DNA of 64,000 bases from an uncultured Muribaculaceae bacterium (GTDB taxonomy: Bacteria > Bacteroidota > Bacteroidia > Bacteroidales > Muribaculaceae): the NCBI GenBank assembly GCA_905233845.1, contig CAJOFH010000017.1, positions 1 through 64,000 on the forward strand, written 5' to 3'. The translations under genes were made by a program, and so were the position numbers. The notes under the pieces were generated by a model that saw nothing but the letters and a program-made list of their open reading frames with translations, had not been told where the DNA came from and ran no database searches. Positions 21,699-27,350 of the stretch are shown here, in pieces; position 1 is the first letter of the stretch, and every line of letters begins with the position of its first letter.

Positions 21699-22907
21699 TC
21701 AGTCAACTACCCAGTTGTGGTTGAACACTTTGTTTCCCGCTTTGCTGCGATAGAGCGAATCTTGCTTAGGCACTTTCACCTTATAAACTTTGCCTGAATC
21801 ATTTGGCAAATGGTCGCTTCTTATCCACGGGTTGGCTTCTCGCAGCTGTGCGTAGGTTATCTCATGTTCCTTTGCCCAAGTAATCCAGCTGTCGACAGTG
21901 GTGTTCACCTCCTCCACATCATACTCGATGGGCTGATATAGCTGATTCACGTCGATGCGGTATCCAAACTGCTTAGGATTGCTTAGGAATATCTTGTAGG
22001 CGAGTATTCGAAATATATATCTCGACGTTTCACTCACGAGCCTGAGATCAAATGCGTTATCAACTTGTTGACGCTCTAGTTCACTTGACACTCTCCCCAT
22101 GCCAGCGTTGTAGCTCGAGCACGCAGCTGCCCAGTTGCCATATTTAGAATAAGCCTTTTTCAAGTAGTTGCATGCAGCCACAGTAGCATTTTCAATATTA
22201 AATCTCTCGTCAACGTATTCATTGATTTCCAGCTCGTATTCTTTGCCCGTACCAGGCATAAGCTGCCAAACGCCAGCAGCTTTGGCTGGTGATACTGCAG
22301 TAACATCCAAGGAGCTCTCGGCAACTGCGAGATATACCAAATCTTCAGGGACATCATTTTCACTGAGTATCTTTATGAGAGTTGGGAAGAATCGGTTCGC
22401 CCTTTTTATGATGAGGGATGTTTGTGTATGGTTATAAATAGTACTTGTGAGCTCCCTGTCAAGTCTTTCGGCCATATCAATGCGGTCGAAATCCACTTTT
22501 TCGCCACAGAAGTCCATACTTATGGGCATCTCAGGTACAATTACTGCAGCATATCCACGATAAGGCAATGATGTGGTATCGTTCTTTATCGTGTCGATAG
22601 ACTGGGGTATTGAGTAAACAACACCGCTGCTAGTCTTATGTGTTCTTGTGCAGCTCTTGGATGTTATAAAAAAGAACAGTATAAGTTGTGTTATGGCAAA
22701 AATAACAAGCACTGTTATGACAGTATTGCGGAAGGTTTTGCCCCCTTTGTTGGGCTTGCTTTCTTTTCCTGTGCTATTGCTATCAAGCATGGGAGGAATA
22801 CATTCTTCTTTAGAGGCGTTGCCATCATACGTGGGTGGCTTGCTTTCTGACTCCCCAGTGATGATTCCATTATACTTGGGAGGCTTATTATTGTTGTTGG
22901 TATTCAT
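21699..22907 (-). CDS. Membrane-anchored lytic transglycosylase (SLT) with cytoplasmic tail
   Basis: A 402-residue peptidoglycan-cleaving enzyme. The SLT domain carries the catalytic glutamate in YLAVAESSLDVTAVSPAKAAG and VWQLMPGTG, then SSYNAGMGRV. Unlike its neighbour it begins with an approximately 58-residue cytoplasmic tail holding imperfect PPKYNG/PPTYDG/PPMLDS repeats, then one transmembrane helix. The C-terminus (NKVFNHNWVVD) is nearly identical to that of the gene upstream, so they are tandem paralogs that differ mainly in how they are anchored. Confidence 0.88.
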   Translation of the reverse strand: MNTNNNNKPPKYNGIITGESESKPPTYDGNASKEECIPPMLDSNSTGKESKPNKGGKTFRNTVITVLVIFAITQLILFFFITSKSCTRTHKTSSGVVYSIPQSIDTIKNDTTSLPYRGYAAVIVPEMPISMDFCGEKVDFDRIDMAERLDRELTSTIYNHTQTSLIIKRANRFFPTLIKILSENDVPEDLVYLAVAESSLDVTAVSPAKAAGVWQLMPGTGKEYELEINEYVDERFNIENATVAACNYLKKAYSKYGNWAAACSSYNAGMGRVSSELERQQVDNAFDLRLVSETSRYIFRILAYKIFLSNPKQFGYRIDVNQLYQPIEYDVEEVNTTVDSWITWAKEHEITYAQLREANPWIRSDHLPNDSGKVYKVKVPKQDSLYRSKAGNKVFNHNWVVD

Positions 22908-22947
22908 TACTTACAATGTATCGAAATAAAATAGATAAAGACCTAAC

Positions 22948-23892
22948 TCAGTCAACCACCCAATTGTTGTTGTACACCTTATTTCCAGCCTTGCTTCGAT
23001 ATAACGATTTGTGAGTGGGAATCTTTATCTTGTAGACTTTTCCCGAGCTATTTGGCAGTTTGTAGCTTCTTATCCAGGGGTTTGCATCACGCAGTTGTGC
23101 GTAAGAAATTCCCTGATTCTTTGCCCAAGTGACCCAATTGTCGACTGGAGTGCTCACTGTCACGGTTTTATATTCTATGGGTTGATAAAGCTGGTCACGA
23201 TGAATGCTATATCCGAACTGTTTGGGGTTATTTAGGAAAATTTTGTAGGCGATAATGCGGAAGACATATCTTGAAGTTTCATTAACAAGTCTGAGGTCCA
23301 ACGCGTTACTTGCTTGCTGCTGTTGGAGCTCGTTAGTTATTCTTCCCATTCCAGCATTGTAGCTTGCGCATACCGAAGTCCATTTATGAAATTTTGAGTA
23401 TGCGTCCTTGAAATACTTGCAAGCCGCTACCGTTTCTTTCTCGGGGTCAAATCTCTCATCTACATCCTCATTGACCTCTAAACCGTACTGCTTAGCAGTA
23501 GCCGGCATGAACTGCCAGATACCCGCCGCACCCGCCGAAGATAATGCATTAATATCCATCGAACTTTCAGCTACCGCAAGATAAATAAGATCATCAGGCA
23601 TCTTATACTCTTTAAGCAATTCGGCAAGCCTTGGAAAGAATCGGTTCGCCCTTTTTATAATGAGGGTCGTTTGGGTGTGGCTGAAAATTGTTGTTGTAAG
23701 CTCCCTGTCAAGTCTCTCGGCCATATCAATGCGGTCGAAGTGAACCTTCTCACCGCAAAAGGTGATGCTTTCTGGAATATCGGGCACACTCACGACGGCA
23801 TATTTCTCGTTCTTGTGTTGAGACGAAGAAAAACAATTGATAGAAGTCAAAAAAATAACAGATATTATCGCAAATAGTTTCAGAAATCTCAT
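22948..23892 (-). CDS. Secreted lytic transglycosylase (SLT), tandem paralog
   Basis: A 314-residue lytic transglycosylase with a signal peptide (MRFLKLFAIISVIFLTSINC; cysteine 20 might be lipidated but the lipobox is poor). The catalytic glutamate is in YLAVAESSMDINALSSAGAAG followed by IWQFMPATAKQYG. Most of the enzyme aligns with the next gene downstream, including ERLDREL, IIKRANRFFP and the C-terminal YNNNWVVD. It lies 40 bp upstream of that paralog and 75 bp after the CHU_C protein gene. Confidence 0.88.
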   Translation of the reverse strand: MRFLKLFAIISVIFLTSINCFSSSQHKNEKYAVVSVPDIPESITFCGEKVHFDRIDMAERLDRELTTTIFSHTQTTLIIKRANRFFPRLAELLKEYKMPDDLIYLAVAESSMDINALSSAGAAGIWQFMPATAKQYGLEVNEDVDERFDPEKETVAACKYFKDAYSKFHKWTSVCASYNAGMGRITNELQQQQASNALDLRLVNETSRYVFRIIAYKIFLNNPKQFGYSIHRDQLYQPIEYKTVTVSTPVDNWVTWAKNQGISYAQLRDANPWIRSYKLPNSSGKVYKIKIPTHKSLYRSKAGNKVYNNNWVVD

Positions 23893-25398: not shown

Positions 25399-26013
25399 TT
25401 ATTCCTCAATAAATTCGAAATTGGAGGTGTCTATGGGTTCGTCCTTGGGAGTCTCTTTGGGCTGCCTCAGGAAATCCATGATGTCTTTCACCGTTACGAT
25501 GGAATCAATGGTTTCGTCGGGAATCACCACATTGAACTCCTTTTCTACGGCAATCAATAGCTCCACTACACCAAGCGAGTCAAGTCCCAAGTCGGTTCTC
25601 AAGTTTGACATGGGTTTAACTTTCCAGTTATAAGTTTTTGCTTCTTTAGCAACAAGATTGATGACGCGGCTATAGATGGTGTCGGGAGTGTTTGTTGTGT
25701 CCTTTTTAGGATGTTTTGGCCCACCATACATTGTGGGACGAACTGGCCCACCATAGACTCTCGGCTTTCTGACGCCGTACATGAGCCTAACCCTGTCTTT
25801 TCTCGATTGTGGAGGCAATTGTGCCATAAGGTCATCGAAGTCCACTTTTTGTCCGTCGATTCGCACCTCATCGGCAGCAGTGAGCTCTATGTCGGGCTTG
25901 ACATCTTGTTTAGGTGTATTGGGCGAGGGTGTCACCGCCATTGCGCCAGTGGTTACCCCAGCTGCCACAACAGCCCCAAGTGCCAGTTTGCGTTTCTTAT
26001 TGTCTTTGCTCAT
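25399..26013 (-). CDS. MYG/YGGP-motif protein fused to an acyl carrier protein domain
   Basis: A 204-residue protein with an unusual build. Residues 10-27 are hydrophobic and small (LALGAVVAAGVTTGAMAV), followed by a proline-rich stretch. Residues 78-99 carry MYG, YGGP and MYGGP, motifs seen in Bacteroidetes peptides and lipoproteins encoded beside radical SAM enzymes. Residues 112-183 form an acyl carrier protein domain: helix 1 YSRVINLVAKEA, LRTDLGLDSLGVVELL with the likely phosphopantetheine serine at 146, and helix 3 TVKDIMDFL. It starts at ATG 26013, 11 bp after the radical SAM stop; a longer frame to 26061 overlaps that gene. I infer it is the radical SAM enzyme's substrate or partner. 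It could also be a purely cytoplasmic carrier. Confidence 0.8.
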   Translation of the reverse strand: MSKDNKKRKLALGAVVAAGVTTGAMAVTPSPNTPKQDVKPDIELTAADEVRIDGQKVDFDDLMAQLPPQSRKDRVRLMYGVRKPRVYGGPVRPTMYGGPKHPKKDTTNTPDTIYSRVINLVAKEAKTYNWKVKPMSNLRTDLGLDSLGVVELLIAVEKEFNVVIPDETIDSIVTVKDIMDFLRQPKETPKDEPIDTSNFEFIEE

Positions 26014-26024
26014 AATTTTGGATA

Positions 26025-27104
26025 TTATAGTTTTACATTTTTCAATCGGTTGTAATGGCACAGCATCAAGTCACCATTACCGTCACGCAGGTGGAAACCG
26101 TTGCCTTGACAATAGCGGAACATATCGCAGTCAGAGCAAATGCCTCGCTTCATCCAGTCGAGGTTGCGATACACTTCAAAGCGGTTGTTCCATACGTCCC
26201 AGAAACTGTCACGGTAGATGTTCCCTTGGTTATAGTCGCTGCGAATGCTCAGGCATCCCGAGATACTACCATCGGTACGAATGCTTGCCACGGTGAGCCC
26301 CGCTTCGCAGGTGTAGAAATAGTCTCTCACCATGCCCTCGTAAGGTCCGAGAAATCCTTCACACGCATAGTTGAGGTCAATTTTTCCCTCCAATCTAGTC
26401 TTGACGATAAAGTTCAGCAAGTCTCGAAACTGAACGTCGGTGAGTTGTAACTCGTCAACACCATTAGCCCTCCCCATGGGGATGATAGTGAAACAACGCC
26501 ATTTTTTTACACCAGCGTCGATAAGCAACTGCTTGATTTGGTCAAGACTGTTGATGTTGCGTGAGTTGACACATGTAATCACATCCCATTCCAGGTTATC
26601 AACGCGCTTCATCTGCTCGATGGCTCGCATAGCATGGTCGAAGCTTTGGTCATTCTTGCGGAGCCAGTTGTGCTGCTCACGAGTTCCGTCTATGTCTACA
26701 GCTATGCTGTCTATTCCTACTTCGGCAAGAGCGTCCATCATTTTCTCGTCGAGGAGGTGACCGTTAGTTACCATCCCCCACTCGAATCCACGACGCTTGA
26801 TTTCCCTGCCGCACTCCACTATGTCATGCCTGACGAGTGGCTCTCCGCCCACGGTTTGCACGAGCACAGAACTGGAATCAACATGAACAGCAATCTCGTC
26901 GAGCACGGTGAGGAAGTCGTCGAGAGGCATCTCGGTAGATTGGAGGTCTTTAGCACAGTCGCTGCCACAATGCCTACACGACATGTTACAGCGCAACGTA
27001 CATTCCCAGAACAGTTGGTCCAGAGGATGCTCGTGGCACAAGCGCTCATTCTGCTTCCTTGTTGCCTCTAAGAATTGTTGCTGTTGTGGAGAAAAGGCAG
27101 GCAT
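26025..27104 (-). CDS. Radical SAM/SPASM enzyme
   Basis: A 359-residue radical SAM protein. The [4Fe-4S] SAM motif CNMSCRHC uses cysteines 39, 43 and 46, in the context LFWECTLRCNMSCRHCGSDC. The C-terminal SPASM region has further cysteines (YTCEAG, SGCLSI, GICSDCDMFRYCQG, LMLCHYN) for extra iron-sulfur clusters. Such enzymes modify peptides or proteins; the opening resembles maturases of the Bacteroidetes radical SAM/lipoprotein systems as I remember them. It lies 9 bp after a 54-aa gene and 11 bp before the ACP-domain protein, so the three are translated from one message. Confidence 0.9.
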   Translation of the reverse strand: MPAFSPQQQQFLEATRKQNERLCHEHPLDQLFWECTLRCNMSCRHCGSDCAKDLQSTEMPLDDFLTVLDEIAVHVDSSSVLVQTVGGEPLVRHDIVECGREIKRRGFEWGMVTNGHLLDEKMMDALAEVGIDSIAVDIDGTREQHNWLRKNDQSFDHAMRAIEQMKRVDNLEWDVITCVNSRNINSLDQIKQLLIDAGVKKWRCFTIIPMGRANGVDELQLTDVQFRDLLNFIVKTRLEGKIDLNYACEGFLGPYEGMVRDYFYTCEAGLTVASIRTDGSISGCLSIRSDYNQGNIYRDSFWDVWNNRFEVYRNLDWMKRGICSDCDMFRYCQGNGFHLRDGNGDLMLCHYNRLKNVKL

Positions 27105-27113
27105 AATCAGTTG

Positions 27114-27278
27114 CTAATCTTTATTTTCAACAGTCTCTTGTTTATCATCATTCTTTTCTTTGGGTTGATTGTCTTTTCCTTCACCTTCAGCATTGTGGTA
27201 AGATTTAATATGCTCTTCGTATTCACGCTGCTTCTCGAAAAGAAGATTATAATCACCTTCAAAATTACGTTTTCTCAT
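27114..27278 (-). CDS. 54-aa charged protein, first gene of the radical SAM operon
   Basis: The minus strand has ATG at 27278 and TAG at 27114-27116, giving 54 residues. It starts MRKRNFEGDYNLLFEKQREY and its second half is almost only K, E, D, N and Q, with no cysteine. A full promoter (27306-27337) precedes it and the radical SAM start follows its stop by 9 bp, so it is very likely a real gene. It might be a precursor, a leader-binding partner or a small structural protein; the sequence does not decide. Confidence 0.65.
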   Translation of the reverse strand: MRKRNFEGDYNLLFEKQREYEEHIKSYHNAEGEGKDNQPKEKNDDKQETVENKD

Positions 27279-27305
27279 AATATGAAATTACTATTATTCA
27301 ATATG

Positions 27306-27337
27306 CAAAGATATAAAAACAAAGAGAGTATCCCAAA
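27306..27337 (-). promoter_or_regulatory. Promoter of the 54-aa / radical SAM / ACP operon
   Basis: On the minus strand TTTG (27334-27337) and TATCTTTG (27306-27313) are 20 bases apart. The -33 element lies in the loop of the upstream terminator hairpin (27325-27350). Confidence 0.65.
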
Positions 27338-27350
27338 AATAGGATACTCT
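27325..27350 (-). terminator. Hairpin terminator after the RluA-type gene
   Basis: AGAGTATCC and GGATACTCT arms form a 9-bp stem. On the minus strand it is followed by TCTTTGTTTTTA, and it lies about 60 bases after the stop of the pseudouridine synthase gene. The plus side also has a T-rich tract. Confidence 0.7.

Follow-up and report, generated by a model that had tools for sequence, protein, structure and literature searches.

In the NCBIfam nomenclature, TIGR04133 is a "hypothetical equivalog" family of radical S-adenosylmethionine (SAM) enzymes named after its lipoprotein partner, TIGR04134, and the two families form a catalogued, functionally uncharacterised "rSAM/lipoprotein" system that is annotated on Parabacteroides and Treponema plasmids. 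A second system, the PlpXY splicease (PlpX family TIGR04103), acts on Nif11-type precursors (spliceotides); according to the accessible parts of two publications, it excises tyramine at the motif XYG, with MYG and LYG as natural sites (PMC10533398, PMC11002830). Neither XYG splicing nor the enzyme family with its usual lipoprotein partner is new. Here, we describe a locus in which a TIGR04133 enzyme is followed by a partner fused to an acyl carrier protein (ACP) domain. The locus lies on contig CAJOFH010000017.1 (GCA_905233845.1) of an uncultured Muribaculaceae bacterium, referred to here as a rumen bacterium; the whole stretch analysed, 64,000 nt, is called the window. Three genes are arranged on the minus strand (27114–27278, 26025–27104, and 25399–26013) with 9 and 11 bp between them; the second encodes the 359-aa radical SAM protein P0002, and the third the 204-aa protein P0003, which contains MYG/YGGP motifs and the ACP domain. 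A preliminary description of these genes had given the same coordinates, gaps, motif positions, and carrier serine (Ser146), all of which were reproduced. We propose that the locus encodes a TIGR04133-type radical SAM protein-modification system acting on P0003, with XYG splicing as its chemistry, a reading that we hold, taken whole, to be marginally on the probable side.

The enzyme P0002 and described radical SAM systems

P0002 (26025–27104, minus strand) is a radical SAM/SPASM enzyme and the presumed modifying enzyme. Profile search gave 505 bits for TIGR04133 (cut-off 425), 73.7 bits for PF04055, and 33.4 bits for PF13186. Cys39, Cys43, and Cys46 (CX3CX2C) as well as Cys266, Cys284, Cys323, Cys326, Cys332, and Cys349 are unchanged across 20 aligned homologs; we designate the latter six the SPASM cysteines. 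Among the genomes searched and the homologs aligned, the closest relatives of both P0002 and P0003 are found in a single genome (G010), whose enzyme is 87% identical to P0002 over 356 columns of the tree alignment. The genome of the window carries a second TIGR04133 gene.

Comparison between this locus and the rSAM/lipoprotein system revealed that (i) in both, an enzyme over the curated TIGR04133 cut-off forms a tight gene pair with its partner; (ii) in both, the partner has an N-terminal hydrophobic stretch and a YG..P motif, the latter being a criterion of our own, drawn from the 80 loci described below, and P0003 has three such sites; (iii) P0003 has no cysteine, and ACP or a TonB C-terminal domain (TonB_C) takes the place of the lipoprotein domain; and (iv) the partner gene lies downstream of the enzyme gene here and upstream there. 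P0003 was also tried as a TIGR04134 member and rejected, no match to this family being found for P0003 or in its genome by profile search.

The PlpXY system likewise combines a SPASM radical SAM enzyme with XYG, the published splicease motif in the accessible part of its source (PMC10533398), and a proline soon after it; P0003 contains XYG three times (MYG, VYG, and MYG). Several sites per precursor are possible there, and the available text describes tags that also work inside proteins, including LYGLP and GYGVVFP; among the short tags tested were GPIRPLYGLPI and GAVAAGYGVVFPG, and not every tag worked everywhere (PMC10533398, PMC11002830). Predicted splicease systems are put at 939 in PMC10533398. 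A Nostoc plasmid illustrates the usual arrangement, with a PlpX-family enzyme (TIGR04103, 853 bits) downstream of a Nif11 precursor ending in ALYGLPPELF. By contrast, P0002 lies far below the TIGR04103 cut-off, a PlpY-like protein and a Nif11 leader are missing from what was found, and P0003 is longer, probably anchored, and equipped with a folded domain.

Two further families show partial likeness. Some precursors of the GDL motif peptide (DUF1843) maturases (TIGR03913) have an N-terminal LYG or PYG, and the tree places these enzymes with PlpX and TIGR04133 at a fork of moderate support; the peptides, however, are small (56–64 aa in the two loci read) and have no anchor, and 3 of the 6 read lack YG. 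TIGR04069, "peptide maturation system acyl carrier-related protein", is ACP-like and by its name belongs to such a system, but P0003 scored 22 bits against its cut-off of 70. With a model of 77 positions, TIGR04069 represents, in our view, the ACP part alone.

In a tree of 34 enzyme sequences, into which P0002 entered as a row of a gapped alignment file, the 19 TIGR04133 rows form one group (support 100/100), which joins PlpX, the GDL motif maturases, and three other rows in a group of 27, at a fork with a support of 85/86 that is flagged open.

Tyr-Gly sites in P0003 and across enzyme loci

P0003 (25399–26013, minus strand), the presumed substrate, is composed of an N-terminal leader or anchor, a linker with three XYG..P sites, and the ACP domain, as judged from sequence and homolog alignment. 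Residues 1–28 (25930–26013) have a basic start followed by a hydrophobic stretch, with a Kyte–Doolittle mean of 1.78 over residues 10–28, and may serve as leader, signal, or anchor. Residues 45–62 (25828–25881) form an element, TAADxVxIDGxxxDFDDL, that is common to ACP-type and TonB-type substrates. The three sites are MYG (residues 78–80, 25774–25782) within LMYGVRKP; VYGGP (residues 86–90, 25744–25758), the Y87 of which is nearly invariant; and MYGGP (residues 95–99, 25717–25731), which is missing in the closest homolog (G010). The core of the first, RLMYGVRKP, nearly equals the LMYGVRPP of Alistipes lipoprotein-like proteins that have no ACP.

An alignment of 21 ACP-type proteins, drawn from 15 of the genus genomes searched and five named records of unchecked genus, revealed as invariant M1, K9, G23, T45-A46-A47, G54, and Y79-G80; the last pair is unchanged in all 21, though the other 20 rows are only 25%–70% identical to P0003. 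All 21 have a 19-residue window with a mean hydropathy of 1.51–2.16, and in 8 of them a cysteine lies near the end of the hydrophobic stretch (residues 29–31 in 4, 33–35 in 4). The hydrophobic N-terminus, these cysteines, and the TonB_C paralogs described below suggest that the protein is exported or anchored, which we regard as fairly likely. Between the window and G010, the proportion of nonsynonymous differences (pN) was lowest in P0003 residues 1–35 (0.051), followed by the enzyme (0.083), the ACP part (0.169), and the linker (0.222), the synonymous divergence (dS) of this comparison being near saturation. Because residues 1–35 change least, we favour a role of the N-terminus in recognition beyond that of a plain signal sequence.

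The enzyme alignment was used to scan genomes, and the best 80 of 580 relatives (51%–84% identity, not each scored against TIGR04133) were read with their surroundings. These 80 loci belong mostly to rumen and gut Bacteroidales, including Bacteroides, Phocaeicola, Parabacteroides, Alistipes, and Butyricimonas, and some stem from genomes also searched whole (for example, L078 from G017). An open reading frame (ORF) with YGx1-4P was found near the enzyme on the same strand in 74 of the 80 loci and on the opposite strand in 2, counting any ORF of 50–349 aa that lies at most 700 bp before or 400 bp after the tblastn match. In 70 of these 74, the ORF also begins with a basic and hydrophobic region (K or R among residues 1–20 and a hydrophobic window close to the start); the other 4 are a Clp_N protein (L082), two acidic YGGP proteins (L084 and L085), and the ORF of L134. 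When a single ORF was kept per place, 10 loci whose enzyme ORF was not recognised by the pattern were dropped; a motif gene was present in 52 of the remaining 70 loci, and YG.P occurred in 50 of 89 adjacent genes, taken from the same strand only, versus 13 of 288 genes that stood three or more places off, taken from either strand. Among the partners are both 74-aa lipoprotein-like proteins with LMYGVRNP, at one end of the range, and TIGR04134 lipoproteins, at the other. Outside Bacteroidota, a TIGR04133/TIGR04134 pair with CYGMP lies on a Treponema saccharophilum plasmid (L159:2592-4068), with a serine recombinase gene alongside.

P0003 itself was searched for in 61 genomes, namely its own, 36 others of the genus, and 24 of the order. 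N-terminal matches occurred in 16 of the 37 genus genomes, every time in a row behind a TIGR04133 enzyme scoring over the cut-off, often as two to four tandem copies; the other 21 genus genomes and the 24 order genomes gave none, and all other matches cover the ACP part only. A wider search of 393 order genomes, drawn evenly and with few genus members, gave matches at E 1e-12 or better in two, the window's own genome and G417; the G417 match is read as a plain ACP because it covers positions 80–195 only, in an 82-aa frame that crosses a stop. Among the whole genomes searched, ACP- or TonB-fused partners were seen in one rumen genus; further ones occur in named rumen records of unchecked genus. 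The preliminary description had coupled the radical SAM enzyme with the MYG/YGGP region, and this coupling is borne out by the 16 genus genomes and the 74 loci; homologs lacking both YG and the enzyme were looked for in the 61 genomes and not found. From these sequence comparisons, P0002 and P0003 are very probably enzyme and substrate.

The adjacency could also be incidental, P0003 being an ordinary exported or membrane protein and the real substrates being unlinked small genes for VYGP lipoprotein-like proteins. Three other contigs of the window's genome do contain small lipoprotein-like genes, six in total, with VYGP-type or YGPP motifs (L181, L182, and L183 on C40, C49, and C53), linked to neither of its TIGR04133 enzymes, and no YG..P gene was seen beside the second of these enzymes. 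The six genes are likely partners in trans of that second enzyme. Adjacency without exception in the 16 genomes and the invariance of Y79-G80 speak against coincidence, as does the enzyme tree, in which enzymes of small-VYGPP-lipoprotein loci and of P0003-like loci fall into separate groups, except that the L054 enzyme, with a partner of another kind, falls in the P0003 group. We consider an incidental adjacency very improbable.

Given this pairing, some radical change at XYG is to be expected with high confidence. By analogy with PlpXY, our best guess is that the change would be excision of tyramine to give alpha-keto-beta-amino acids, for which and against which we see the balance as level. 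This rating was chosen because the TIGR04103 model gives P0002 no higher score than the heme-pathway models do and because no PlpY-like protein was found. The same pairing could instead carry another chemistry, in which the tyrosine of XYG..P is altered by a side-chain or backbone crosslink, by epimerisation, or by oxidation, with no splicing. TIGR04133 is only moderately related to PlpX, and of 156 motif instances, 138 have V, M, E, or L directly before YG, with V in 63 and E in 19, versus a prototype that acts on M and L in the accessible part of its source (PMC10533398); moreover, a related enzyme from the same taxonomic order is followed by a protein of KYGYPC repeats. On the other hand, Y and G are fixed, X is free, and P is close, with one residue between YG and P in 132 of the 156 instances, like the published splice tags in the text available (PMC10533398). 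We regard a chemistry other than splicing as rather unlikely. The preliminary description had spoken of a possibly undescribed modification route; the pairing of the radical SAM enzyme with the YGGP region holds, but the chemistry could well be XYG splicing as already published, or something akin to it.

None of 296 genomes of the phylum had a TIGR04103 member over the cut-off. Six matched the model below it, including one GDL-type locus and one KYGYPC-repeat locus, and the other four had no clear YG precursor in the stretch examined. The gene at L156:2955-3599 (G298) encodes six KYGYP repeats behind a radical SAM enzyme that scored 233 bits on TIGR03913 and 218 bits on TIGR04103, both below the cut-offs.

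Several observations weigh against a splicing system of this kind. (i) P0002 scored 127.9 bits on TIGR04103 (cut-off 725) and was rejected as a member; it scored a little higher on the heme b synthase (136.3) and NirJ2 (131.8) models, for which reason its profile score does not indicate a specific kinship to PlpX. (ii) The fork uniting TIGR04133 with PlpX has a moderate support of 85/86 and is flagged open, several rows have long branches, and the root serves for drawing only; by sequence, the kinship is only moderate. (iii) A tblastn search of 115 enzyme loci with the 71-aa neighbour of the Nostoc enzyme, taken as PlpY-like from its position, gave one match, at E 9.5; the three genes of the locus match no family of recognition element (RRE)-type partners, this tblastn search being the only one made for such a partner beyond them. 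(iv) P0003 matched no Nif11 or NHLP leader model in the profile search. (v) Six of the 80 loci have no motif ORF by our rule: in L083 one overlaps the enzyme, L100, L137, and L140 lie near contig ends, and L090 and L112 have none. (vi) The motif ORF of L134 looks like chance, and L054 (G016), whose enzyme belongs to the window's clade, adjoins a YG protein that has no hydrophobic start. This L054 partner (L054:1494-1949) contains a CLYGPPYP site followed by further cysteines.

The ACP domain and its replacements

The ACP domain of P0003 comprises residues 110–184 (25462–25686, minus strand), with the codon of Ser146 at 25576–25578. PF00550 matched residues 117–182 with 38.2 bits (cut-off 20.8), Ser146 lying within DSL, and all 18 NCBIfam models listed scored below their curated cut-offs. 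In the structure model of P0003 (67.2 over the whole), the ten-residue block means are 85–93 over residues 111–180, and the top 20 PDB matches of this part in Foldseek are all ACP entries by title. The ACP domain with a DSL serine proposed earlier was thus confirmed, and by sequence the window's own domain looks able to take phosphopantetheine.

The serine, however, is kept in only 4 of the 21 ACP-type proteins (those of the window, G010, and G005, and one G001 copy), the other 17 having R, Q, A, T, E, D, or L at this position; in G001, a Ser-less and a Ser-bearing copy stand in tandem. In the first alignment, 9 of 16 members matched PF00550 with an E-value of 1 or less. A Ser-less domain, modelled from an input alignment that contained Ser-bearing members too, still formed a helical bundle, and from residue 121 onward its ten-residue block means are 80–95. 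Its Foldseek matches are weak (best E 3.1e-3, none at 0.001); in the 50 PDB entries listed, every title that specifies the molecule denotes a carrier protein or a complex of one, and the rest (complex I and the ribosome) include such a chain.

Tandem paralogs retain the N-terminus, the TAAD element, and YG but have a TonB C-terminal domain where the ACP would stand; PF03544 (TonB_C) matched L033:5698-6381 with 74.9 bits and L028:8585-9286 with 58.7. Such TonB-type paralogs stand at L033:5698-7096 and in L036, L034, and L028 (G024, G006, G018, and G017), with the same leader and mostly the same YG site. An ACP-type copy is present in 15 of the 16 genomes, and among the copies read, those of G006 are all TonB-type. 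Other partner domains are the TIGR04134 lipoprotein and Clp_N (22.8 bits, cut-off 20.7); the Clp N-domain protein beside the enzyme at L082:6131-6715 has the C-terminal end INTVYGPYPGWTEGL.

The Tyr-Gly site is therefore taken as the fixed element of these proteins and the ACP as exchangeable and usually Ser-less, because Y79-G80 is invariant, the serine is kept in 4 of 21, and TonB_C stands in for ACP in paralogs. Alternatively, the ACP could be the working heart of the system, Ser146 bearing 4'-phosphopantetheine with an acyl or aminoacyl group and the enzyme acting on or with the carrier-bound group, as in the carrier-bound modification route of the preliminary description. Ser146 and its helix look intact by PF00550 and by fold, and the three homologs that keep DSL or DSI do so at 33%–70% identity. 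That 17 of 21 substrates lack the serine, one of these despite a Ser-bearing tandem neighbour, and that TonB_C replaces ACP elsewhere tell against this view, as does a scan of the three genes and four flanking genes, which showed no ketosynthase, acyl-ligase, or thioesterase. We hold a working carrier to be improbable here, and for the family an ACP as necessary carrier was rejected; the route built on it is not supported. In the family at large, the carrier serine is, as far as the alignment indicates, likely dispensable, and the ACP is better described as a fused folded module in a family that does not need phosphopantetheine.

Surroundings of the locus and a proposed order of events

The locus is flanked upstream by a pseudouridine synthase gene (PF00849) and on the other side by a gene for a T9SS type B sorting domain protein. 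The promoter reported previously at 27306–27337 (minus strand) is promoter-like in sequence and fits TTTG-N-TAnnTTTG, which we take to be the Bacteroides-type consensus; 11 matches occur in the window versus a mean of 1.4 in shuffled sequence. It shares bases with a terminator-like hairpin (27325–27350) located 3' of the pseudouridine synthase gene. Two neighbouring genes for MltD-like lytic transglycosylases lie downstream of the locus (21699–23892).

The first of the three genes (27114–27278, minus strand) encodes a 54-aa protein that had been regarded as an operon member and a possible accessory. The gene is no stable member of the operon. It was found in 3 of 41 genomes, in one of which (G014) it lies on a contig without that genome's TIGR04133 gene, and G010, home of the closest enzyme and substrate relatives, has no match. 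In view of the first two observations it was left out of the system, and as an accessory it was rejected; judging by this distribution, it is probably none.

In the proposed splicing system, P0002 would rewrite Tyr-Gly sites (X-Y-G, then P) in the product of the next gene, the linker of which bears three of them, at Tyr79, Tyr87, and Tyr96. The basic and hydrophobic N-terminus together with the TAADxVxIDGxxxDFDDL element may form the region for enzyme recognition and for export or anchoring, and the rewriting would precede the exit of P0003 from the cytoplasm, an order of events that we infer. The ACP would be a fused folded module, interchangeable with the TonB C-terminal domain and mostly without the phosphopantetheine serine. 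Any biological role of the modified P0003 is speculative. As a long shot, envelope-anchored proteins of this rumen genus might carry ribosomally made backbone ketoamides (from spliced XYG) beside an ACP that in a few lineages has a live phosphopantetheine thiol, forming a self-contained electrophile-plus-thiol device outside the cytoplasm; elsewhere, the ACP would be only a scaffold or be swapped for the TonB domain. To our knowledge, such a use of an ACP together with protein splicing has no precedent.

In the open literature searched, outside which the main splicease survey lies (Scott et al. 2022, Chem 8:2659), we found neither ACP- or TonB-fused partners nor the YG rule seen over the 80 loci, and no mention of TIGR04133, TIGR04134, or "radical SAM-associated putative lipoprotein"; titles and abstract openings in it name no ACP-fused radical SAM substrate.

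These observations suggest a function for the catalogued family pair TIGR04133/TIGR04134. With its three sites and a tail domain that models well, the two-gene locus makes a compact test case. In G001, where a Ser-bearing and a Ser-less copy naturally stand in tandem, the role of the carrier is separated from the matter of splicing. Should TIGR04133 enzymes splice XYG, backbone beta-amino acids would occur, beyond secreted peptides, also in many gut and rumen Bacteroidales proteins that are probably anchored, and they would stand beside domains as unlike as ACP, TonB_C, and Clp_N.

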